IMG/VR virus record: IMGVR_UViG_3300021963_004845
Location: 1-27,347 of that record
DNA length: 27,347 nt
Direction: 5' to 3' (one strand)
Source of the DNA: a virus
Shown here: in pieces, positions 776 to 21,870 of the stretch
Numbering within the stretch: the stretch's first letter is position 1
Layout of the letters: each line of letters opens with the position of its first letter
Notes under the pieces: model-generated
Told to the model about the DNA's origin: nothing
Databases searched by the model: none
The model's input: only the letters and a program-made list of their open reading frames with translations
Translations under genes and position numbers: made by a program

Positions 776-1767
776 ACATCTTTTAATCTTTCAATTTTAA
801 GATATTGCTGAAGTCGATGCAAGTTAGTACCATCACATTCTGTGCTACAAACTCTCATGGGGTTGGTGGCCCACCGGTCACTTACTTTTTTATACAGTGG
901 CAAAATTTTATCTAGGCCATTTGTGCCGTGATACTGTTGAAAGTCTCCCAACACTCCATGTATTTCTTCTGTAGCGTCATCAGGGCGAGTCGGGCCATAT
1001 GCAGCCTCGGCAATGTAAGGACAGGGTAAAAAGTATCCTTGTGCAGTGATCATGATTTCATCGCGAGGTAGTTGTAGGCACTGTATGTCGCCTTTGCCTC
1101 GAGGCTGGACTACCTTCCAACTCTTGGGTGGAGTCAACCATTGTACTGGTCGTATGGTTTCCCTTGAACTTACTTTTACTTGAAAATAAGTAAACCCCAT
1201 TTTCTTGGCCAAGTTACGTGCTTCTGTAACTTGATGTTTGTTATGTTCAAATACCAAAAATGCCCAGCATGCTATACCACCAGCATCAATAAATGCTCGG
1301 GCATTGCGCATGACTTTTTTCCAAACTACCCTACGTCGATAAATGTGATTGGTGTCTTCCAGACCATCAATACTAAAAGTTAAAAAATTGTAGGGATGAG
1401 TATCAACTGAAAAAAACTTAGCTGCATCTCGCCACCAGGTCACAGTTCTGGTTCCGCCGTTGCTATCCATTTGAAAAAGAATATTGGGATTCTGTTGCTT
1501 GATCCAACTCATTATGGGTATGGCATCTTTGGCCATGGTAGGATCACCATGCGATCCTGTTAGTTTAATATATTTGACTTTGGTAAGATAATCAGATGGT
1601 AACAATTTTTTAATGTCACTTAGTGTCATTGTGGTTTGTGGTACCGCAGGATTTTCTACTATACCCAACACAGGATCATCGTCAAGATATCGATTGCATT
1701 GTATACACGCACTGTTACACTGCGTGGATAACTCTAACGCCAGTCTAGTGGGGTAATGATCAAACAT
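772..1767 (-). CDS. Radical SAM enzyme with SPASM-like C-terminus
   Basis: The 331-residue protein has the radical SAM cluster motif CX3CX2C (C17, C21, C24 in STQCNSACIQCNR), which in this superfamily binds the [4Fe-4S] cluster that cleaves S-adenosylmethionine. The region LTGSHGDPTMAKD near residues 69-81 takes the place of the usual GGEP strand. The C-terminal third has further cysteines (around 230, 250, 308 and 312), with ITAQGYFLPCPYIAEAA resembling the auxiliary-cluster (SPASM/Twitch) region. Substrate is unknown; relatives modify peptides, sugars or nucleotides. It overlaps both neighbours (TAATG upstream, ATGA downstream). It is distinct from QueE at 7619-8491, so this phage has two radical SAM enzymes. 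Confidence 0.85.
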   Translation of the reverse strand: MFDHYPTRLALELSTQCNSACIQCNRYLDDDPVLGIVENPAVPQTTMTLSDIKKLLPSDYLTKVKYIKLTGSHGDPTMAKDAIPIMSWIKQQNPNILFQMDSNGGTRTVTWWRDAAKFFSVDTHPYNFLTFSIDGLEDTNHIYRRRVVWKKVMRNARAFIDAGGIACWAFLVFEHNKHQVTEARNLAKKMGFTYFQVKVSSRETIRPVQWLTPPKSWKVVQPRGKGDIQCLQLPRDEIMITAQGYFLPCPYIAEAAYGPTRPDDATEEIHGVLGDFQQYHGTNGLDKILPLYKKVSDRWATNPMRVCSTECDGTNLHRLQQYLKIERLKDV

Positions 1768-2054
1768 TATGGATAAATTTTATCACCAGCAGTTAGGAGC
1801 ACTACTGAAAACTTTGTGGTTTGAAACTGTGTGTTAAGTTTGCGAGCTAGATTCTTGGCATGGCCGGGATTAGAGAAACTGACCTTTTTATACTTGGGTC
1901 CAGGATACTGGGTAAGCATGTTTGAAGTTTTTAAGTTGATTGGTTTGTTGTCGTAAAAAACTGCCCACACGCCTTCTGAGGCCAGCACTTGCTCGGTCTT
2001 GTAGGTTTGTTTGTTGGTGATTTCAATTAACACCTGTGGCTTGGGTCTTGACAT
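1767..2054 (-). CDS. Conserved phage hypothetical protein (95 aa)
   Basis: This is a small, basic 95-residue protein. A beta-rich N-terminus (PQVLIEITNKQTYKTEQVL) is followed by KKVSFSNPGHAKNLARKLN and a hydrophobic end (FSVVLLTAGDKIYP). The SNPGHAKNLARKLN pattern recurs in small hypothetical proteins of marine T4-like phages. GGAG lies just upstream of the ATG at 2054, and a late-type promoter sits at 2071-2078, so it probably opens a transcription unit. The stop overlaps the radical SAM start (TAATG). Function unknown. Confidence 0.75.
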   Translation of the reverse strand: MSRPKPQVLIEITNKQTYKTEQVLASEGVWAVFYDNKPINLKTSNMLTQYPGPKYKKVSFSNPGHAKNLARKLNTQFQTTKFSVVLLTAGDKIYP

Positions 2055-2070
2055 AGATAAACTCCGTGTT

Positions 2071-2078
2071 TATTTATC
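2071..2078 (-). promoter_or_regulatory. Late-type promoter candidate (GATAAATA)
   Basis: On the minus strand the sequence reads GATAAATA, 7 of 8 matches to the T4 late promoter TATAAATA. It lies in the 31-base gap upstream of the gene starting at 2054, with GGAG between it and the ATG. It is assigned by similarity and position only. Confidence 0.4.
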
Positions 2079-2085
2079 CCAATAA

Positions 2086-2298
2086 CTATGTAGATTTAAA
2101 ACCGCCGCCGGACAAAACCACCTCAATTGGTTCATTTTGAACAGCCTGTTGTTGGCGTGATTGTTCTAGTGCCAACAACAGTTTGGTTATATCGCCGTGC
2201 AAATCCTTGGCATCACGCATGGGCATGATTAGGTCTTTTTGACCACGACTTTCTGCTGCCTTGATTGAATCAATGAACCGATTGATATGCAAACTCAT
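2086..2298 (-). CDS. Conserved phage hypothetical protein (70 aa)
   Basis: The 70-residue, predominantly helical protein contains RFIDSIKAAESRGQKDLIMP and then DAKDLHGDITKLLLALE, followed by a Gln-rich linker and the end VVLSGGGFKST. The DAK.LH.DITKLLL.LE pattern is familiar from short T4-like phage proteins of unknown function. Its ATG overlaps the stop of the MazG-like gene by ATGA, and a short gap with a promoter candidate follows it. Confidence 0.75.
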   Translation of the reverse strand: MSLHINRFIDSIKAAESRGQKDLIMPMRDAKDLHGDITKLLLALEQSRQQQAVQNEPIEVVLSGGGFKST

Positions 2299-7618: not shown

Positions 7619-8491
7619 TCACTTGCCCCATCCGTTGCCCCAAAGATCCACATGCAATCTTGGGCTGTAGTTGTAGCCACGTGCCAGTGCCCAGTCAGCC
7701 ACATTCACTCGGTTGCGTTCGTATGGAGTAACCACACCACCTTGTGGCATCACATAGGTAACACCACAAAATCCGGCCTCACGATATGCAACCACAGCAC
7801 GATCAACTTCTTCGAAGTGTGCTAAGGTTTCTACCACAAACTTCAAATACACTGTGCCATGCATTTGATAGTCTGCTACAATCTCAGGCTTGATAGCATC
7901 CGACCACGATTCACCTGATGCTGACAGTTTAGGACTTACTGAAAAAGTAATTTCTTGCGTGGGCACGGCGCCTAGTGCAGGGCGTCGCCACTCGTGCAAA
8001 AATGTTCGAAATGCTGGCTGTAACTTTTGAGTGCCATTGGTTTCAAATGTGATGTTCTTCAAATCACCCATACTACCTTGCGACAGCAGTTCTTCATAGC
8101 CACGCTGCCAACCCAGTAGTGGTTCGCCACCTGTGATCACAAGATGCACATCATTGCCGTTGTCTTGTTGCCAGCGATGATTGGGTGTGAGCGCCAACAT
8201 CTTTTCAATCAGTTCATCGTGTGTGAGTGTGTGACTTAGGTCCTTGAATGCAGGATGCCAACTGGCATACGAGTCGCATCCTGTGTTAACAAGAGGAAGC
8301 TCTTCAAAAGTCTTGTAGAGATGGATTGATTTGGCCACTTCATCCGCCTCAGTGCTCTTATGGCCGGGAGAGCATCCAAATCCCGCGCATGTAAAGTTGC
8401 AGCCGAAGGTTCGTAAGAACACAGAAGGAACTCCAACAAATCGTCCTTCGCCCTGAGCAGAGTAAAATAGTTCACTGACTTTTAATTTCAT
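7619..8491 (-). CDS. queE: 7-carboxy-7-deazaguanine synthase (QueE)
   Basis: QueE is a radical SAM enzyme that contracts 6-carboxytetrahydropterin to 7-carboxy-7-deazaguanine. The 290-residue protein begins with the family N-terminus (SELFYSAQGEGRFVGVPSVF) and has GCNFTCAGFGC (30-40), GGEPLL (121-126), FETNGT (149-154), a SVSPKLS strand and a C-terminal RLHVDLWGN. Cluster cysteines are unusual. C31 and C35 keep CX3C, but Phe38 holds the place of the third cysteine; candidates are C40 or C72 (NTGCDSYASW). It is longer than E. coli QueE (223 aa). The start overlaps the methyltransferase stop by ATGA. Confidence 0.9.
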   Translation of the reverse strand: MKLKVSELFYSAQGEGRFVGVPSVFLRTFGCNFTCAGFGCSPGHKSTEADEVAKSIHLYKTFEELPLVNTGCDSYASWHPAFKDLSHTLTHDELIEKMLALTPNHRWQQDNGNDVHLVITGGEPLLGWQRGYEELLSQGSMGDLKNITFETNGTQKLQPAFRTFLHEWRRPALGAVPTQEITFSVSPKLSASGESWSDAIKPEIVADYQMHGTVYLKFVVETLAHFEEVDRAVVAYREAGFCGVTYVMPQGGVVTPYERNRVNVADWALARGYNYSPRLHVDLWGNGWGK

Positions 8492-10093: not shown

Positions 10094-10711
10094 TTAGGCC
10101 TCTTGCGCAGCTAATTTTTTCTGCAAGTGATTCAACAAGAAACCATACGCAGGCAGAATAACTAACAGACTCACGATAATTTTGCTGATGGAATTGTTGG
10201 TTGCAACAATGTGCCAGTTGGCAGCCATAAACTCGTTTGCGCCGCCAGCAAAAGCAGTGAAGAAGAACACATAGGTATCAAAGAATGTGCTTACAACTGA
10301 ACTCAATGCAGGAGCAATCCACCAGGTGGCATACTTCTCACGAATGTACTGGAACACGTATACGTCAAGCAAATTGCTCACAAAGTATGCAACACCTGAA
10401 CCAAGACCAATGCGGAAGGCCACTGAATCAGGAGCGCCGCCCAGTTTAACCACTGCCATTGACACAATGATTGCTGGAATGAATGCTAAGGCAATCACAG
10501 CACGACCAGTTTGTTTGCCTAGCAGGCGCACAGTCAAGTCGGTCAACACAACCACTAGTGGGAATGTAAATGCGGCTGCCGCCAATGGTGCACCAAACAC
10601 TGAGAATTTGAATTGCACAATGTAGTTGCTGATAGCAATAATAATAATATGTGCCAGCATGAGCTTGTAGGCCAATGCACGGTCAACGCCATTTAAGATT
10701 CGATCTAACAT
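10094..10711 (-). CDS. yhhQ: Queuosine precursor transporter (YhhQ/VUT family)
   Basis: The 205-residue, strongly hydrophobic protein has about six membrane segments. It shows the family marks NYIVQFKFSVFG, FTFPLVVVLTDLTVRLLGK and a late STFFDTYVFFF stretch. In E. coli YhhQ imports the queuosine precursors preQ0 and preQ1; phage copies are known beside 7-deazaguanine modification genes. It would sit in the host inner membrane. AAGGAAAA precedes the start codon. It lies 17 bases after queD and directly before the GT2-like gene. Combined with FolE, QueD and QueE it gives the phage both import and synthesis of deazaguanine precursors. Confidence 0.88.
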   Translation of the reverse strand: MLDRILNGVDRALAYKLMLAHIIIIAISNYIVQFKFSVFGAPLAAAAFTFPLVVVLTDLTVRLLGKQTGRAVIALAFIPAIIVSMAVVKLGGAPDSVAFRIGLGSGVAYFVSNLLDVYVFQYIREKYATWWIAPALSSVVSTFFDTYVFFFTAFAGGANEFMAANWHIVATNNSISKIIVSLLVILPAYGFLLNHLQKKLAAQEA

Positions 10712-10728: not shown

Positions 10729-11235
10729 TTAAACGAATAGATCTTCCATCCACTCGCGATGGCCTTCTCGAAAAGCCATATTGCTCTGTGTTTCGCGCAC
10801 TTCTACACGATAGCACCAGAGACGCTCTGCTTCACCCGGACCCCACAGGTCCGGAATGTAAACACCGTTCACATACTTGTACAGCATGTCTGCCAAGCCT
10901 TCACACCCTAAGCGTGGCAGGATTGTGAGTTTGGCTATTTTCTTCTCTTGCAAGAGCTTGTATGTTTCCAGCTCTGGATCATCTGCAGATACCAGCAAGG
11001 TGTGATCAAATTGATCTTCCAAAGTTTTCTTCAGTTCTTTGAGACCGCCGTAGTCGGCAGCCCAGTTGCGTACATCCAGATTGTCTGTGCCAAAGTAGAA
11101 CTTCATTGAGAATGAGTAACCGTGAATTAGATTGCAGTGGCTGTCGGCACGCCATTGACGGTATGCGCAGGGAAAAGCATCGTGATACTCTTTGGTGCTG
11201 GTGTACTTGTATTGTACAGATTGATGTGTTGCCAT
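10729..11235 (-). CDS. queD: 6-carboxytetrahydropterin synthase (QueD)
   Basis: QueD converts 7,8-dihydroneopterin triphosphate to 6-carboxytetrahydropterin. The 168-residue T-fold protein has RADSHCNLIHGYSF (29-42) with the likely catalytic C34 and zinc ligand H38. It also has DYGGLKELK (61-69), FDHTLLV (76-82), CEGLAD (111-116) and a VEVRETQSNMA strand. The usual HGH zinc motif reads HGY here; H18 and H33 are possible replacements. I believe this is normal for a proteobacterial/phage subfamily. A very strong ribosome site (AGGAGG, 5 bases from the ATG) and an extended -10 promoter lie upstream, so queD likely starts its own unit. Confidence 0.9.
   Translation of the reverse strand: MATHQSVQYKYTSTKEYHDAFPCAYRQWRADSHCNLIHGYSFSMKFYFGTDNLDVRNWAADYGGLKELKKTLEDQFDHTLLVSADDPELETYKLLQEKKIAKLTILPRLGCEGLADMLYKYVNGVYIPDLWGPGEAERLWCYRVEVRETQSNMAFREGHREWMEDLFV
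10836..10854. repeat. Perfect 7-bp inverted repeat inside queD
   Basis: CCGGACC and GGTCCGG are separated by CCACA, giving a stable stem with a 5-base loop in the 3' part of queD. It may be coincidental coding sequence. The stem shares GTCCGG with the intergenic hairpins near 11290 and 26254. Confidence 0.5.
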
Positions 11236-11311: not shown

Positions 11312-12175
11312 CTATTTAACAAGTTTTTCGAGTAGTGATTGTTTTGTGCCTAACAGCGCACAATCCAACGTACCAAACTGCTTGCCTAGCATTTTTCGAA
11401 CATGAATTTTGTTACTAGGCAGCATATCACGCGGATACCCCATTTTTGGTCTGTAACGCACCTTGTAGATATTAGCTTTGTTTTCTTGCATGTTCATTCC
11501 AACATCCCATTCGTTAACAAATGCTGCTAAGATATCTGGATTCCAATAGTGAAATCCCCAAGGATGCTGATTGGGACACATTGTTTCTAAATAGTGATCA
11601 GTTTCCTCTAACACAAATCCTACATAGTCTCCCAGTTGTGGTTCTAGATAAGTCATTTGGTCCTGATCAGGATAATATTCCAATTGGTATCCGGTTACTA
11701 AAAATCTTTGTGTGTCTTGCATGAGTTTTGACAACATTAGAGTTGTAATAAGACCATATGGTAATCTAGGTCGGATGTCAAGAAATGAATGTTTTTCTTC
11801 TAGTGATCCAACAAAGTCTTGTGAATGAATAATCAAAGGTTCAACATTGTGTTGCTTGCACCAGTCAATAGCATATGAACTTTCTTTTATTTGTTCCTGG
11901 TCTTCTACATTATCATAGATCAGAATGACAGGAGTAAACGGTATGTTGTTTCTATAGAATGTATTAGCTACATTCTCACTATCACACCCGCCACTGAGTG
12001 CAACATACAAATCTTTATGCTGACTGTAAATTTCATGTGCCACTTGATCACACGCTTGATCAAACGGTATGATCTTGTTGGCTTTTTGATTGAATGTCAC
12101 ACGCAAATTTTCTTTTTGTTTGCGCTTTGGAAGTCCATCCCAACTGATGTCAATCCAGTTATCTCTGCACAGCAT
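11312..12175 (-). CDS. PP-loop ATPase (asparagine-synthase/ExsB-like fold)
   Basis: The 287-residue protein has the PP-loop ALSGGCDSENVA (59-70), which binds ATP and adenylates a carbonyl or carboxyl oxygen before attack by ammonia or sulfur. The following FTPVILIYDN strand and IDWCKQHNVEP helix resemble the AsnB C-terminal domain and related AANH proteins. True QueC (about 220-230 aa) carries a C-terminal four-cysteine zinc site, which I do not see here. It might still do a QueC-like amidation of 7-carboxy-7-deazaguanine, because it sits just upstream of queD, but it could equally amidate a sugar or thiolate a nucleotide. It overlaps the Rieske gene by 17 bases. Confidence 0.8.
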   Translation of the reverse strand: MLCRDNWIDISWDGLPKRKQKENLRVTFNQKANKIIPFDQACDQVAHEIYSQHKDLYVALSGGCDSENVANTFYRNNIPFTPVILIYDNVEDQEQIKESSYAIDWCKQHNVEPLIIHSQDFVGSLEEKHSFLDIRPRLPYGLITTLMLSKLMQDTQRFLVTGYQLEYYPDQDQMTYLEPQLGDYVGFVLEETDHYLETMCPNQHPWGFHYWNPDILAAFVNEWDVGMNMQENKANIYKVRYRPKMGYPRDMLPSNKIHVRKMLGKQFGTLDCALLGTKQSLLEKLVK

Positions 12176-12971
12176 GATAGGTCCTATGATGTTGTTTGAG
12201 TTGATCTAAATTGCTATGGCCTATTTCAACTATGTTTTCACTAAGTGCTCGATCTTGACTCCAAGCCAACTCCCATACATCTTCGTTGAGTTGCCAGTTG
12301 CCGAGTGGATATCTGGTGTCACGATATTTGTACACTTGTACACCACAGTCGGTTGCTACAGTAACAAACAATGCGCCTGGTTGCCACTCAATCATTGTGC
12401 CAGGATATAGTGCCATCCAACAGGCGCCAAGATTCAATTCCTGATCTTGAGGTATCATGTGACTGTTATTTTGTGGGGGCACAAATTGCACAGAACCACC
12501 ATCAAATGTTTCATAAACCACACGACCAACAGTTAGAATACCTATTCGATCATACACGCCCGCATGTACTACAGGAATGTGATCTATGTCCAAGAACACA
12601 TCCATGATTGTTTCAACTGATGCGTTCACTGTGTCTCGGCGCTGTTCTACCAATTCAAAATGTTCTGTCGGAATTGGAAAACTATAAGGCACTAATTGGT
12701 CAAACAACATAGCACCATCACTATAGCAAGATTGTTTTTGTAGCACTAGATCGTTACCAATGCCTAGCCCCAATAAATCAAATTGCATACCATGGTATGG
12801 GCACGTTAGTTTAGATGTTTTACAGTTGCTGATCCTACTGTTTTGATGCGGACACACATTGGACAACAAATAAAAACGACCGTAGTGATTTACTACTGAC
12901 CACTTTTTATCAAGTTGATCAATAGGCGTTGCACTATCGGATTTAAAATCTTGTTTGAGCCCTAGGAACAT
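12159..12971 (-). CDS. Rieske non-heme iron oxygenase-like protein
   Basis: The 270-residue protein has a complete Rieske [2Fe-2S] site, C40-P-H42 ... C57-P-Y-H60 (CXH-X14-CXXH). LDIDHIPVVHAG (127-138) follows, in which D128, H131 and H136 match the facial triad that binds the mononuclear iron. It is therefore likely a complete, compact oxygenase (usual alpha subunits are 350-450 aa), not only a ferredoxin. It would need an electron donor, presumably from the host. The substrate is unknown. It lies between a HIT protein (1-base gap) and the PP-loop protein. Oxidation of a base, lipid or pigment-like compound are all possible. Confidence 0.85.
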   Translation of the reverse strand: MFLGLKQDFKSDSATPIDQLDKKWSVVNHYGRFYLLSNVCPHQNSRISNCKTSKLTCPYHGMQFDLLGLGIGNDLVLQKQSCYSDGAMLFDQLVPYSFPIPTEHFELVEQRRDTVNASVETIMDVFLDIDHIPVVHAGVYDRIGILTVGRVVYETFDGGSVQFVPPQNNSHMIPQDQELNLGACWMALYPGTMIEWQPGALFVTVATDCGVQVYKYRDTRYPLGNWQLNEDVWELAWSQDRALSENIVEIGHSNLDQLKQHHRTYHAVQR

Positions 12972-12972
12972 A

Positions 12973-13365
12973 TTATGGTTTTTGATAGCCTGCTGTTTTG
13001 TAATTAGCTTGACCAGGAATCACACCACGCACGCCGCCAACAGGATCTGCACAGTCACCCGCTCTACGTGGGATCAAATGCACATGTGGATACATCACAG
13101 TTTGGCCTGCTTCACGACCCATGTTGATACCAATGTTGAACGCATCACACTCGCCATCAGCAATCATTCTGCGACCATGCAACATGGCTGATTCAAAGCA
13201 GTCCACAATTACATTATCATTATTGTACTGTGGCACAAACAACAAATGACCAGGTGTGACAGGATAACGATCACGAAACACAACAACGTGATAGTCTGAC
13301 AGTTCTGTCACACGGTCGTCCCAGGGTGCAATATCTTGTTGATATGCAATTTCTAAATCAGTCAT
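12973..13365 (-). CDS. HIT family nucleotide hydrolase/transferase
   Basis: The 130-residue protein has the HIT fold pattern. An N-terminal strand pair (YHVVVFRDRYPVTPGHLLFVP) is followed by GINMGREAGQTV and the motif MYPHVHLIPRR (91-101). The nucleophilic His (H94) and the following His (H96) are kept, whereas the first His of HxHxH is Tyr92. HIT proteins cleave or transfer nucleoside phosphates, for example AMP from Ap4A or adenylated intermediates. Next to enzymes that form adenylates (PP-loop, ANL) it could clear aborted adenylates (inference). The start forms an ATGA overlap with the next upstream gene. Confidence 0.88.
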   Translation of the reverse strand: MTDLEIAYQQDIAPWDDRVTELSDYHVVVFRDRYPVTPGHLLFVPQYNNDNVIVDCFESAMLHGRRMIADGECDAFNIGINMGREAGQTVMYPHVHLIPRRAGDCADPVGGVRGVIPGQANYKTAGYQKP

Positions 13366-14358: not shown

Positions 14359-14765
14359 ACGCAAATTTCCTCTTTGAGATATCGTTTGAGTTCTTTGTCA
14401 TTGGGTTCTACAGCGTAGTTCTTCTTGAAGAAAATTTCATAACTATCACTGCCGTATTTGCCAATGCCGTACAAATCGGTAGCATCATCACCATTCCAGG
14501 TCATGTAGTCTTGACTCATTTTTTTCAATCTAGTGTACCTTACATTGGCCATACCCAATGGTGCGATAATGCTTTTTACAAAATCTTCATCGGCCGCAAT
14601 CAATACTTCCGGTGTTGGGAACCAGTATAAAAATTCTGGCAAGGTTGTTTTTACAGGTTTGCGGCCTGTTTGATTCAGCATGATCACCCCAACCATGTGT
14701 TCCCATGAGTTAGAGATTTGTTGTTGAACCATCAGATCATCTCGTAATGCATTAAAAAATATCAT
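14355..14765 (-). CDS. MBD4-like helix-hairpin-helix DNA glycosylase, compact
   Basis: The 136-residue protein matches the HhH-GPD fold in its MBD4/EndoIII-like form: MLNQTGRKPVKTTLPEFL near 29-46, PLGMANVRYTRLKKMSQDY (69-87), a hairpin LYGIGKYGSDSYEIF (98-112) and VEPNDKELKRYL (119-130). D123 sits at the catalytic aspartate. The hairpin lacks the EndoIII lysine and the iron-sulfur cysteines are absent, so a monofunctional glycosylase is expected. MBD4 removes T or U opposite G. It ends sooner than bacterial relatives (about 200 aa). It is translationally coupled to folE (ATGA). Confidence 0.75.
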   Translation of the reverse strand: MIFFNALRDDLMVQQQISNSWEHMVGVIMLNQTGRKPVKTTLPEFLYWFPTPEVLIAADEDFVKSIIAPLGMANVRYTRLKKMSQDYMTWNGDDATDLYGIGKYGSDSYEIFFKKNYAVEPNDKELKRYLKEEICV

Positions 14766-15454
14766 CGTGGTGCAAAGTCCTGTTGCAGTTTGATATTGTC
14801 AAAGAACTCTTTCTTCACACTTTGGTCTGTTTTAAAAGCCCCGTGTAAAACCGTTGTTTGGGTGAGACTAGAGTGAGCCATGATACCGCGATTCTCACAA
14901 CAACCATGGGTAGCTTGTATATAAACTGCGACATCCTTGGACCCGGTCGCAAATTCAATTTCGCGAGCAATATCCATACATAGTTCTTCTTGGAGAGTCC
15001 CACGTCTTGCACACCACTGCGCGATCCTAGTATACTTGGATAGACCAATGAGCACGGGACCAGCAATGATTCCAATATAAGCCACACCCGTAACAGGTTG
15101 GTGATGATGCGAGCACATGCTCTTAAGCTCTGAACGCACCACCAACATACCCTCGTATGCTCCGTCCGTATCGTTCGGGAAAGCCGTAGCATTAGGGCTC
15201 TCCTCATACCTGCCAGCCATAATTTCATTGAAGTACATTTTGGCAAGACGTTGTGCGGTACCTTTTGAGTTTGGATCATTTTCTCTGTCGATTAGTAATA
15301 CATCTAGCACTTGTTCAAATGCCACAGTTGCTTCGTTGATTAAACCAAGTTTGGTAACTTCGTCAACATATTCACTGATGTTGTCGCCGGCCCAGAATCT
15401 TTTGCCTTCTGCCTTCATCTGTTCGCGAAGGACTTGTGATAGATTTTTTTCCAA
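14762..15454 (-). CDS. folE: GTP cyclohydrolase I (FolE)
   Basis: FolE converts GTP to 7,8-dihydroneopterin triphosphate, the entry to folate and 7-deazaguanine synthesis. The 230-residue protein has the zinc ligands C114 and H117 in SMCSHHHQP and C185 in ATHGCCENRG. It also has the substrate block GLSKYTRIAQWCARR (137-151) followed by LQEEL, and the GTAQRLAKMY helix. Length is normal (E. coli 222 aa). A late-type promoter candidate lies about 50 bases upstream. With QueD and QueE on the same strand it completes the path from GTP to 7-carboxy-7-deazaguanine. Confidence 0.95.
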   Translation of the reverse strand: MEKNLSQVLREQMKAEGKRFWAGDNISEYVDEVTKLGLINEATVAFEQVLDVLLIDRENDPNSKGTAQRLAKMYFNEIMAGRYEESPNATAFPNDTDGAYEGMLVVRSELKSMCSHHHQPVTGVAYIGIIAGPVLIGLSKYTRIAQWCARRGTLQEELCMDIAREIEFATGSKDVAVYIQATHGCCENRGIMAHSSLTQTTVLHGAFKTDQSVKKEFFDNIKLQQDFAPR

Positions 15455-17054: not shown

Positions 17055-17248
17055 TCAATTTCCTTGAACAATGGCATACTTTCACTCAGCATTCTAACAA
17101 ACTCTAAGTTAGTTGGAAATGTGTCCAGTGCGCCTTTGTGGTTTGTGATATTAATTTTCATGTTTTCTACCGGGCCAGATTCTAGCCCATAGAAAAACAT
17201 TTCTGTAGCACCTTGTTCAATTTGTTTTGTAAAATATTCGCTAATCAT
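17051..17248 (-). CDS. Hypothetical protein (65 aa)
   Basis: The short soluble protein begins MISEYFTKQIEQGATEMFFY and ends with LEFVRMLSESMPLFKEIE. It is tied by ATGA overlaps to the GT-B glycosyltransferase upstream and the GalE-like gene downstream, so it likely serves the same pathway. I recognise no family. Confidence 0.65.
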   Translation of the reverse strand: MISEYFTKQIEQGATEMFFYGLESGPVENMKINITNHKGALDTFPTNLEFVRMLSESMPLFKEIE

Positions 17249-18459
17249 TCTTCGATCTTTACAACTTGATATTTTTCGTGAGCAACATGGTCACGATAGC
17301 GATTGCCCGCTCTATTCCATTGCTCACCGCTACCAGTAATAATATCAACAATGCGATCCACAGTGGCATTGTTCCAATCTGAAATAAGTCCCATGTTGTG
17401 ATGCGGTTCGCGAAGTAGGTTTTGCATTTTGTGATAAGCGTCATCTATGCTCCAGGGAATATACAGTCTATTGGAATCGTTCGCGAAGGTTTCAGGAAAA
17501 CTGCGATACGCTGGATATAGCACATTGCATCCAAGAGTATCGGCCTCTGATACGGTGTTTGAAACCCAATCTTGTAGAGCACAATTAAACAACACACGAG
17601 TGTTGTTGAGATGACTATAGTATTCATTCTTGCTTATGTTGTCATAGATCCGGAGTTTGCCTTCTGCCTCCATACGGCGGGCACGTTCAATATACTCTGG
17701 ATTGTTGGATCGGAGAGGTCCGCCACTGTATATTGCAAACTCACACGGCTCGCTGGTAAGCTCACCATACATCTCAATAAGGTCCATAAAGAAGCCAGGT
17801 TGTTTCTCTTGGTCGAAGCGGGCAGCGAAACCCACCCTCCGGGTACGCGAATCAAACGGCTTGATGTTCTGTTTGCCACCGATACGTTCAAGAACTTCGT
17901 CTTTTCCAAATGCCAGGCCGGAAATGTTGTAGATCGGAGCAGTCCAGCCAGCAATCCGCATATGAGCCACCATTTCCTCGTTGGTTGCCAGAACGGCTCC
18001 ACCAGAGAACGCAACCATCTCATTGACCATTTGTTCATATAAACCCATCCACTTCTGCAACCCCCATACATGCACAAAGTCATCAGGGTCAATTGCTTGT
18101 GCTAAACAACGCACAAAGATTCTGGGACAATGTCCTGGAGGAATCTGATTCATGATATAGCCGAGGCTTTCAAAGCCGGGCTGAAACATGTCTTCAAAGT
18201 AGATAACGTCGGACTCTGTGACTTCACCGTTTTTCATCATTTGAACCAAGTTCATCATTTGGCTCATGGCAAAATAACTGCGACCGTGTGCGTCCAACAC
18301 CTGACCCACTGAGATAGCTTGTGTGTTGTCAATAGTTGTGCCTGGAACATAAACAACGTCTAGCCCACGGCGTTCAAACACTCTGCGGTTCCACTCTGTG
18401 AGCTGTAAAGTGTATCTTGCTTCATATGACTCAAGTCCCATGTAAAATAGTTTTCTCAT
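17245..18459 (-). CDS. Glycosyltransferase, GT-B fold (GT1/GT4-like)
   Basis: The 404-residue protein has a two-domain GT-B plan. The C-terminal nucleotide-sugar domain starts at RRVGFAARFDQEKQPGFFMD, and EADTLGCNVLYPAYRSFPE corresponds to the donor-binding E-x7-E region. The N-terminal half, with VIYFEDMFQPGFESLGY, would bind the acceptor. Phage relatives can glucosylate modified DNA bases or decorate virion proteins. The adjacent epimerase and aminotransferase argue for a dedicated sugar donor. It has ATGA overlaps on both sides. Confidence 0.8.
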   Translation of the reverse strand: MRKLFYMGLESYEARYTLQLTEWNRRVFERRGLDVVYVPGTTIDNTQAISVGQVLDAHGRSYFAMSQMMNLVQMMKNGEVTESDVIYFEDMFQPGFESLGYIMNQIPPGHCPRIFVRCLAQAIDPDDFVHVWGLQKWMGLYEQMVNEMVAFSGGAVLATNEEMVAHMRIAGWTAPIYNISGLAFGKDEVLERIGGKQNIKPFDSRTRRVGFAARFDQEKQPGFFMDLIEMYGELTSEPCEFAIYSGGPLRSNNPEYIERARRMEAEGKLRIYDNISKNEYYSHLNNTRVLFNCALQDWVSNTVSEADTLGCNVLYPAYRSFPETFANDSNRLYIPWSIDDAYHKMQNLLREPHHNMGLISDWNNATVDRIVDIITGSGEQWNRAGNRYRDHVAHEKYQVVKIEE

Positions 18460-19153: not shown

Positions 19154-19597
19154 TTAGATAGCAATTGAAAGAGAAGGGCGGTGAGTTTCATACTTAATAA
19201 GGGCTCCGTTTTCACCATCTTCAGAGACCTCAATCCAGACTGAGCGTCCGGGATACCTTGCGGCGATTTGCAAATACAAATCGTCCGACATCATTTCACA
19301 TGACTTGTAGTCAAGTTGGATGACTCCGTCTTGATAGAGTTTTTGGAGCCATCGCTTGAACTGGATGAATTCAATGTCTCTATCATTGTGTACAACATCA
19401 ATCCACACCCGGAAGTGGAAGATATGACGGTGAGGAGTGCCAAGGAAACTAACATCATACTCATCGCCCGTCTTAAGGGCTGGATCTGTTGCGGCTGCGG
19501 GGTAGCAGTGGATTCCTTCTTTTTGGAAGGTGACCCAGATTCTTCTTTGAGCTTCATGCTTGATTCTTTCTACGGTTTCGCGTTCAACTTGTGTCAT
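19154..19597 (-). CDS. Conserved phage protein, possible T-fold (QueD/QueF-like)
   Basis: The 147-residue protein has an order that resembles a T-fold (beta-beta-alpha-alpha-beta-beta). Strands lie in GDEYDVSFLG and HRHIFHFRVWIDVV, helices in IEFIQFKRWLQKLY and SCEMMSDDLYLQIAARY, then a strand in SVWIEVSEDGENGALIKYE. Conserved-looking His (HRHIFH), Cys-Glu (SCEMM) and Glu (SEDGENG) would line a pterin- or purine-type pocket. T-fold enzymes include FolE, QueD and QueF. Sequence identity to them is too low for me to name it. It is coupled by ATGA to the next gene and lies in the DpdA operon, so a deazaguanine-related reaction is a reasonable guess. Confidence 0.7.
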   Translation of the reverse strand: MTQVERETVERIKHEAQRRIWVTFQKEGIHCYPAAATDPALKTGDEYDVSFLGTPHRHIFHFRVWIDVVHNDRDIEFIQFKRWLQKLYQDGVIQLDYKSCEMMSDDLYLQIAARYPGRSVWIEVSEDGENGALIKYETHRPSLSIAI

Positions 19598-20127
19598 TTG
19601 ATTACTTCGTCCTTTGTGTATTGATCCCAGGCAGTGAATGTTTTCCTATCCAGCAAGTCATGCAGGCTATGACACCATACTCCAGGATTGGTTGCTCGGA
19701 AATCTTTGTCGTCCAGTTTGATAGTAGCGTTATAACCTAGCAGTTTAATGTAAGGCAGTTTCACAGATATCATGGGAATGAATTGTGATTGGTCACACAG
19801 GCCGCCTTCGCACAACCCTTCTACAGCAGCGGAATCAAGATCTAGTGTACACCAGTAGCCCCGATCCAACCAGTGTTGAATCATGCGTTCCCATGCACTC
19901 CAAGTTTCGGCATCATTCATAGTAGGGTTCGGAAAACTTTGATTGGCACCAAAATAAATGTGTGTGATCGGCATCTTTGACTTTGCATCAATCTCTCCAC
20001 GCTTCCAATCTATTGCTTCGTTAGTTTGCAAGCCTACCACAAACAATGTGCGGCGGTTGACAGCAGGGCTGGCTTCAACTTCTGTGCCTACAAAGAAATT
20101 GGTATCTTCGTGTCCGGGTCTATTCAT
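19594..20127 (-). CDS. Conserved DpdA-linked hypothetical protein (177 aa)
   Basis: The 177-residue protein has strands and helices reminiscent of an alpha/beta enzyme: FFVGTEVEASPAVNRRTLFVV, ITHIYFGANQSFP, WLDRGYWCTLDLDSAAVEGL, CEGGLCDQSQFIPMISVKLPY, ATIKLDDKDF and NPGVWCHSLHDLL. Cys residues at about 93, 105 and 110 (CTLD, CEGGLC) could bind metal. I have seen similar proteins in T4-like phages but know no function. Its start overlaps the dpdA stop by ATGA and its stop overlaps the T-fold candidate, making a three-gene coupled unit. Confidence 0.75.
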   Translation of the reverse strand: MNRPGHEDTNFFVGTEVEASPAVNRRTLFVVGLQTNEAIDWKRGEIDAKSKMPITHIYFGANQSFPNPTMNDAETWSAWERMIQHWLDRGYWCTLDLDSAAVEGLCEGGLCDQSQFIPMISVKLPYIKLLGYNATIKLDDKDFRATNPGVWCHSLHDLLDRKTFTAWDQYTKDEVIK

Positions 20128-21710
20128 TTGATTTGCTCACTTTCAAGCAGTTGTAATGCTTCTGATTTTAACTGGTCTTCTGGGTCGTTGTCAACATCAG
20201 GTTCTTCAAAAGAGAACAGTGCGTTGAATTGTGTGCGAGCATTTTTGGTTTTCTTACCTTTGAAACCTCGTGTGCCCACAATCTCCATCCAATAACTATC
20301 ATATGTTTCAATAATAGCGTCAGCAGTTTCTCGATCTGGTGCGGCAAAGATTGCTTCCACAATGTCTTCAAATCGAGCATAATCGCCTGTGCTACGGCGC
20401 ATCATGGCAGGATGTTCACCTGCGTCAAATCGTCGATTGGCTTCTTGCACAGCAGTTAGATGCATCCAAACATTGTGACCCATGAGCAGTGCATATGAGA
20501 ATGAATCCCATGATGTCTTGCCTTCTTTGCCAATCTTATTTAGGTCGCCGGGCTTGTAAATGCAAATATCTTTCATCTTAAACAAGTCGCTTAGTGGACT
20601 GTCTTCCCAGCGTGGGTAGATGCCATCTGCTACTACACCAGTTGACCACTTGCGTGTGTCTAGGCTGTATTTTTTATCGTCAGCACTAGGACCCATACGA
20701 TACGACCACTTTGAGTCATGCTCAAATACATTTTCGTAATACACTTGGCCGTTGGCTGTGGCAAGGAATGGACTGGCACAATCAAAAGAGATAGTAAAAG
20801 CCGGATTAACGTATTTTCTAACTGCTCTTTGAATCACGGTCAGTAGCACAGCCCATTCCAACTTTGATGTGCCCAAGAAGTGCATCCAATCATGCACACC
20901 CTCTTGCAACAAATTGTCATAGCGCAAGGCTACCAGTCGTCTTAGCACCAAGTGAACGTCGCACATGTTCTGACCGCCCATTGACCAACCATCAAAGTGT
21001 GTGTCTGGATACTTTGTGGGATCACAGTATTCTTTCATGGTTTCGTACCATTGGTCTGCACTGCTGTGGTTGTCACCCTGCAATACATTTAGAATCCTAG
21101 TACCACTATTACGAATGCCCTTACGATGCTTCATAAAGTATTCGTTGTTGAACTTGGTAGCATCTACTGCTTCTTGCAGTGTGGAGATTTGACAGGCCTT
21201 GCTGGCTTTCTTGTCATGAATGACCCAGGTTGGAATATCAAGTGTCATGCAGTAATCAGAAACGTTATCTAGCCAGTTTAGAACAAGCTCTCGTTTCTTT
21301 TGAGCCTTAGCACAACCTGAGTTGGCTTTCCAATCGCCTTCCCACAAGCCTTTAGCAATCTGGAAACCGCCCGAATCTCCCAGTATAAACGTTCCCGGCT
21401 CACGGTTCCGGACCATGTCCTCTGACCAGTCTTGTTTGGAGAGATCGAGATTAGCATGTCCTCCAGACGCAAGTGACCAACGATAAGGGAATAAAGCCTT
21501 AGTGGAGTTGAGCCAATTAAGCTGTTCCATATCCGTAAGACCCTGCGGAAATCGTGCGGGATCCACATACGGTTCATTCCTTTGCTTGCCCACAAATGTG
21601 GCATAGAACCCGCTGATGGCCGGAAGGAATACAGCATAGTCCAATTGCTTGGCTGTTAAGTTATCTTGAGTCAATTCGACCCCACTTGATTTTGAGCCAG
21701 ATTCGTTCAT
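20124..21710 (-). CDS. dpdA: DpdA-like guanine transglycosylase (7-deazaguanine into DNA)
   Basis: The 528-residue protein (ATG at 21710) is a tRNA-guanine-transglycosylase relative. It has FLPAISGFYA near the start, GDSGGFQ (111-117), TLDIP (156-160), VLQGD (209-213), GWSMGG (241-246), HFLGTSK (277-283) and SFDCASPF (308-315). D310 matches the TGT nucleophile and D112 the base-recognition aspartate. The C-terminal four-ligand zinc site of tRNA enzymes is absent, as in DpdA, which swaps guanine in DNA for a 7-deazaguanine. The C-terminal tail contains LFSFE (498-502), the same peptide that ends the DNA polymerase. An earlier in-frame start would overlap the DUF2061 gene further. Confidence 0.85.
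   Translation of the reverse strand: MNESGSKSSGVELTQDNLTAKQLDYAVFLPAISGFYATFVGKQRNEPYVDPARFPQGLTDMEQLNWLNSTKALFPYRWSLASGGHANLDLSKQDWSEDMVRNREPGTFILGDSGGFQIAKGLWEGDWKANSGCAKAQKKRELVLNWLDNVSDYCMTLDIPTWVIHDKKASKACQISTLQEAVDATKFNNEYFMKHRKGIRNSGTRILNVLQGDNHSSADQWYETMKEYCDPTKYPDTHFDGWSMGGQNMCDVHLVLRRLVALRYDNLLQEGVHDWMHFLGTSKLEWAVLLTVIQRAVRKYVNPAFTISFDCASPFLATANGQVYYENVFEHDSKWSYRMGPSADDKKYSLDTRKWSTGVVADGIYPRWEDSPLSDLFKMKDICIYKPGDLNKIGKEGKTSWDSFSYALLMGHNVWMHLTAVQEANRRFDAGEHPAMMRRSTGDYARFEDIVEAIFAAPDRETADAIIETYDSYWMEIVGTRGFKGKKTKNARTQFNALFSFEEPDVDNDPEDQLKSEALQLLESEQIK
20205..20219 (-). other. LFSFE peptide in the DpdA tail (putative clamp-binding)
   Basis: These codons encode LFSFE in the context TQFNALFSFEEPD, in a low-complexity acidic tail after the catalytic domain. 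The DNA polymerase ends FTSLFSFE. In T4-like phages the polymerase C-terminal peptide binds the gp45 clamp; the function here is inferred. Confidence 0.5.
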
Positions 21711-21870
21711 GTATGTAATAATCAATACTAAGCAAGACATGCAATGCTGTGGCAAATCCAGTTGCATTGCCAATATCACTAGTGAACATGTAAGTCCATA
21801 GTATGGTAAACAGCCAGGCAGTAATCCTGTATGTTACCATTCTAGTGATTGTTCTTTTTTGTGTTTCCAT
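21661..21870 (-). CDS. DUF2061-like small membrane protein
   Basis: The ATG at 21870 overlaps the clamp stop (TGATG); a GTG one codon earlier is the alternative. The 69-residue protein has a basic N-terminus (QKRTITRMVTYRITAWLFTI), two short hydrophobic segments, and ends YYIHERIWLKIKWGR. The pattern of a K/R-rich start, TYRITA/SWR-type motif and YYxHERxW end is that of DUF2061, a small membrane family in proteobacteria without known function. Its 3' end overlaps the dpdA start by 50 bases. Confidence 0.8.
   Translation of the reverse strand: METQKRTITRMVTYRITAWLFTILWTYMFTSDIGNATGFATALHVLLSIDYYIHERIWLKIKWGRIDSR

Follow-up and report, generated by a model that had tools for sequence, protein, structure and literature searches.

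A QueC-less 7-deazaguanine gene cluster in a putative large freshwater phage, with PHROG 17812 as candidate for the missing step

As for phages using DpdA to modify their DNA, those devoid of preQ0 synthesis genes could depend on preQ0 from the host or on its uptake, and for phage Bipper, where only QueC (7-cyano-7-deazaguanine synthase) is missing, the presence of 7-carboxy-7-deazaguanine (CDG) in DNA has likewise been suggested (PMC6884629). Regarding the chemistry of QueC, AsnB-like enzymes are known to convert carboxylates to nitriles, i.e., PesC, with ArtA/NitB performing the amide-to-nitrile step (PMC13060819). While PesC works on peptide substrates with glutamine or ammonia, ArtA catalyses the amide dehydration step only; an AsnB-like fold is as such capable of QueC-type conversion of a carboxylate or an amide into a nitrile (PMC13060819).

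The window considered here is the whole IMG/VR record IMGVR_UViG_3300021963_004845 (27,347 bp), a 27-kb linear genome fragment of what would be a large freshwater phage, making a modified guanine for its own DNA without QueC. Like the QueC-less phages PA5oct, ACP17 and Cellulophaga phage phiST, it encodes both QueE and a protein of the family PHROG 17812, and like ACP17 and phiST it also encodes FolE and QueD. What the lineage of the window adds respective to Bipper, PA5oct, ACP17 and phiST is a folE-queD interval serving as a variable cargo slot, where genes for the HIT, Rieske and PP-loop proteins are found.

Gene content of the window and search for QueC

The main genes are all carried by the minus strand, namely PolB, clamp, DpdA-like (21779-20124), two small genes including 19154..19597, glycosyltransferase, GalE, DegT-like and FolE, followed in this order by EndoIII-like, HIT, Rieske, PP-loop, QueD, YhhQ, glycosyltransferase-like, methyltransferase, QueE and AMP-ligase-like. 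Three of them would suffice to reach CDG, i.e., (i) FolE, the GTP cyclohydrolase I (14762..15454; PF01227, E=2e-38), (ii) QueD, the 6-carboxytetrahydropterin synthase (10729..11235; PF01242 and phrog_2389), and (iii) QueE, the 7-carboxy-7-deazaguanine synthase (7619..8491; phrog_2076, E=3e-51). The gene at 10094..10711 encodes a YhhQ-type preQ0/preQ1 transporter (NF008406, E=5e-49; TIGR00697 above cut-off), which is found in some relatives and is missing from many within the same gene order.

The DpdA2-like guanine transglycosylase (20124..21779) exhibits a DSGGFQ motif. The Pfam TGT family (PF01702) did not match the DpdA-like protein in relatives, the DpdA2 of phage nt-1 being also without Pfam match, and the predicted structure had a pLDDT of 39.6; since neither Pfam nor structure provided an assignment, the identity was settled by profile comparison with the DpdA2 family (ACP17, X1 and nt-1 YP_008125322), with which the DSGG motif is shared (E=3.5e-7, prob 93%). 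The order PolB-clamp-DpdA is common to the window and phage 9g, and the same type of DpdA-like protein is encoded in Vibrio phage 2.275 beside QueF, YhhQ and QueC. Among ten relatives, the search for QueF returned a single match, below cut-off and containing stops. Near DpdA and PHROG 17812, a 404-aa glycosyltransferase-like protein (17245..18459, minus strand) is conserved in the lineage, with glycosyltransferase-like genes at the corresponding position of ACP17, PA5oct and Phosso, which could point to a sugar taking part in the modification.

That the window lacks a classical QueC, as stated in the initial annotation, was borne out, though one may lie elsewhere in the genome of which the window is a fragment. 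The Pfam family PF06508 matched nothing in the record, and the zinc-site pattern C-x(5-11)-C-x2-C-x2-C is absent from stop-free stretches of at least 60 codons in the six frames. Beyond the window, QueC above cut-off was found neither in PA5oct, ACP17, Phosso and X1, whose genomes are complete, nor in large contigs of up to 364 kb, the same profile scoring 172-191 bits with the positive controls nt-1, 2.275 and 9g. Scans with DpdA and QueD gathered 160 further loci, of which 82 exhibit both FolE and QueD (66 after removal of near-duplicates), and a four-Cys QueC was present in none of these 82. True four-Cys QueC proteins were encountered near a similar QueD in three other loci (L157, L167 and L204), with neither FolE nor DpdA in the stretch examined.

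PHROG 17812 and the fate of CDG

Read from the sequences, the fold class, the conserved residues, the linkage and the presence or absence of genes, all reactions and substrates would be as follows. The CDG formed by FolE, QueD and QueE would be taken over by the PHROG 17812 protein and, most simply, lose its carboxylate to yield undecorated 7-deazaguanine, which the DpdA2-like transglycosylase would then place in DNA. The PP-loop protein would adenylate a carboxylate via its SGGxDS loop, an amide (or a lactam or nitrile) being formed with ammonia or an amine, and together with the Rieske oxygenase it would constitute an accessory tailoring cassette lodged in the variable folE-queD slot. Such a QueC-less 7-deazaguanine DNA-modification pathway, with CDG processed by PHROG 17812 and the PP-loop and Rieske proteins as accessories, is favoured here with moderate confidence, and the base in DNA would be 7-deazaguanine or its 7-carboxy form.

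The gene in question (19154..19597, minus strand; 147 aa) lies near DpdA and was overlooked in the initial annotation. By tblastn, PHROG 17812 was found in 27 phage records corresponding to many hosts, usually with folE, queD, queE or dpdA as neighbours, and with a YhhQ homologue in phage Roos. QueC above cut-off is absent from 12 of the 13 PHROG 17812-carrying phage genomes checked; the 13th, Vibrio phage D479, encodes a degenerate QueC-like protein (1336..2142, minus strand, of locus L255) with the C-terminal Cys cluster kept and the PP-loop motif decayed to MSGIDS. In phages picked for carrying one or the other gene, and hence not fully independent, PHROG 17812 was missing from all six QueC-bearing records (nt-1, 2.275, 9g and G025-G027) and present in all four QueC-less ones (PA5oct and three contigs).

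Seven residues are conserved in the alignment of PHROG 17812, namely H30, H56, H58, E76, S99, E101 and E126, of which the invariant H30, H56, H58, E101 and E126 may correspond to the Zn-type His and Glu anchors of the QueD/T-fold family. C34 and D77-H78, invariant in the alignment of QueD, have no invariant counterpart there. On the profile level, the match to QueD is weak (hhalign, E=1.5e-4, prob 52%), as is the best sequence match in the PDB, PH0634 (E=0.29). Taken together, the conserved residues and these weak matches suggest a QueD-like protein of T-fold, in which three His and two Glu are kept without the Cys and the Asp-His of QueD. PHROG 17812 is most likely a better candidate than the PP-loop protein for the processing of CDG. 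In a NAR 2023 paper, DpdL is reportedly predicted as a CDG decarboxylase; PHROG 17812 may be this DpdL, the two being alike in the place expected for them in a QueC-less pathway.

In agreement with this view of PHROG 17812, the suggestion made earlier for this phage of a 7-carboxy- or undecorated 7-deazaguanine in DNA is a serious possibility. As a small unannotated family tracking the absence of QueC in phages of many hosts, PHROG 17812 can be put to the test as candidate enzyme of the missing step. If true, this would predict the DNA base of a large and abundant group of phages, including the cultured PA5oct, ACP17 and phiST, and how phages of this group resist restriction.

Two other readings concern the fate of CDG. 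In the first one, preQ0 would be supplied by the QueC of the host or imported via YhhQ, with FolE, QueD and QueE merely boosting CDG and DpdA inserting preQ0. Import by the transporter was among the options initially proposed, and the YhhQ homologue adjoining queD keeps it conceivable; host supply or uptake has moreover already been argued for DpdA phages (PMC6884629). However, a transporter present only in some relatives sits poorly with such a role, and the presence of PHROG 17812 in QueC-less but not in QueC-bearing phages is left unexplained, so that this reading is considered possible but unlikely. In the second one, DpdA would insert CDG itself and the DNA would hold 2'-deoxy-7-carboxy-7-deazaguanine. 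The recognised enzymes of the pathway indeed stop at CDG, and the suggestion for Bipper provides a precedent (PMC6884629), but a conserved QueD-like gene near DpdA, from which the catalytic residues of QueD are gone, suggests a further step and makes direct insertion improbable.

The PP-loop protein and the folE-queD slot

The PP-loop gene (11312..12175, minus strand) encodes, from an ATG start, an AsnB-type PP-loop synthetase of 287 aa with an SGGCDSE motif, without glutaminase domain and without Cys4 zinc site. Its start overlaps by 17 bp the gene of a 270-aa Rieske non-heme iron oxygenase (12159..12971, minus strand; PF00355, E=3.9e-10), itself preceded by a HIT-family hydrolase gene (12973..13365, minus strand; PF01230, E=2.4e-10), and queD (11235..10729) starts 76 bp downstream, directly as had been described. 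In the Rieske protein, the CxH/CxxH cluster ligands, the DxxHxxxxH iron site and D240 are invariant in an alignment with relatives down to 23% identity. When the 9-16 kb region was shuffled 200 times, stop-free runs reached 123 codons on average and never exceeded 209, against 287 aa for the PP-loop ORF; with a dN/dS of 0.125-0.135 versus relatives, the latter corresponds to a real protein under purifying selection. The view that it is the only PP-loop protein in the window was likewise confirmed, as the sole S[GA][GA]xDS motif in six-frame stop-free stretches of at least 60 codons belongs to it.

Respective to QueC, the PP-loop protein is alike in its superfamily and in adjoining queD. It differs in not matching PF06508 at E<=1, in having no match as QueC in Pfam, PHROGs or NCBIfam, in the position of its Cys residues (3, 42, 64, 106, 200 and 272), which do not form a C-terminal Cys4 zinc site of QueC type, and in not being co-inherited with the pathway. 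Its proposed closeness to the ATPase domain of AsnB found support in structure. The AlphaFold model (pLDDT 79.9, pTM 0.84) best matched the synthetase domains of human ASNS, beta-lactam synthetase and E. coli AsnB, at Z 13.9, 13.3 and 13.2, respectively, where the alignment spans model residues 1 to about 270 with about 235-250 residues aligned, while for NcsA, LarE and NAD synthetase it mainly starts from residue 34 onward. No solved QueC structure was among the PDB matches listed for the model, which leaves room for some similarity all the same. As modelled, the protein is of AsnB/beta-lactam synthetase-type fold without the glutaminase domain, only about 35 residues preceding the PP-loop domain where the N-terminal Ntn glutaminase would stand, and its PF00733 score (11.6 bits) is below the Pfam cut-off of 21.

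Common to the AsnB and beta-lactam synthetase domain is, besides the fold, the SGGxDS loop (S61, G62, G63, D65 and S66), invariant in the alignment. A Lys near the C-terminus in an RPK context (K244) is invariant too and, judged from sequence, may be the equivalent of the catalytic Lys that AsnB has in its (R)xK motif. Across the wider family, SGGxDSE, C106, H204-P205, F208, K233 and K244 are kept.

In the folE-queD slot, a PP-loop gene was detected in 11 of the 82 loci, or 8 of the 66 deduplicated relatives, at a profile cut-off of 1e-5 from which very divergent copies could escape. The interval itself can be as short as 43 bp or extend over several kb, HIT often being alone there (about 470 bp) and changing cargo being found otherwise. 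The closest relatives (L145 and L146, QueD 98% identical) have other genes in the slot, and their contigs of 286 and 364 kb contain neither a PP-loop relative nor QueC above cut-off. No PP-loop relative was found in PA5oct by profile search, and neither the PP-loop nor the Rieske protein had a tblastn match among 50,697 phage records. Since the PP-loop gene is missing from 58 of the 66 relatives with folE and queD, and since the complete genomes are QueC-less, the absence of QueC is, as far as sequence searches reach, a property of the whole lineage and not of this phage alone, with the PP-loop protein an accessory. We read the latter as optional amide-forming cargo, the substrate of which would more likely be a sugar, a peptide or a small molecule than the base. 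Two questions that seemed a single one are thereby parted, the tempting stand-in for QueC being optional cargo and PHROG 17812 being what tracks the absence of QueC.

Some features of the slot would also fit a link with the base. The PP-loop gene is often paired with the Rieske gene, both sitting between folE and queD, and the Rieske-PP-QueD adjacency, where present, is kept down to 34% identity of the PP-loop protein, which counts against the favoured reading. The slot could in that case be an exchangeable base-tailoring cassette of Rieske proteins, AsnB-like synthetases and other oxygenase-like proteins, acting on the 7-deazaguanine base (e.g., CDG amide conjugates) by amide formation or oxidation at the 7-position and yielding phage-specific hypermodified bases. 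The rapid divergence of the PP-loop protein (50% identity among relatives versus 86-88% for QueD) and the expansion of paralogues would suit such diversification: two or three tandem copies occupy the slot of some relatives, with three copies separating the Rieske gene from queD at L055:8001-10578, in a contig of 320 kb, and likewise in contigs of 240 and 354 kb. Yet other relatives fill the same slot with unrelated cargo, and there are AsnB-like copies at a large distance from the cluster, 6-7 of them being dispersed elsewhere in contigs of 240-354 kb, and base tailoring is accordingly held to be quite improbable. In other relatives, the slot contains an aminotransferase, a PP-loop protein and an FkbM-type methyltransferase.

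Finally, the PP-loop protein as a non-orthologous QueC, which would adenylate CDG and with ammonia give 7-amido-7-deazaguanine, possibly dehydrated to preQ0, is chemically possible since AsnB-like enzymes (PesC, ArtA/NitB) perform QueC-like chemistry (PMC13060819), ArtA structures are among those matching the model (9leh, Z 10.8) and the gene adjoins queD in a window without QueC, but it is genetically very unlikely, as most folE- and queD-bearing relatives lack it in the slot, not one of these relatives having a four-Cys QueC instead, as the QueC-less PA5oct has no relative of it by profile search, and as it diverges far faster than QueD and reaches three tandem paralogues. Of the initial interpretation, the lack of QueC and the AsnB-like fold stand, whereas the replacement of QueC by the PP-loop protein is not supported.

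Other PP-loop proteins of the related loci were considered as hidden QueC and rejected, three (L022, L026 and L059) reading as NAD synthetases and four (L020, L021, L023 and L025) as AsnB-like proteins of 395-423 aa, with no Cys4 site visible by eye in any. In L023 (1842-3101) and L025, the AsnB-like gene has as neighbours a flavoprotein resembling tryptophan halogenases (PF04820, E=7e-36) and a gene reading like the solute-binding protein of a transporter.
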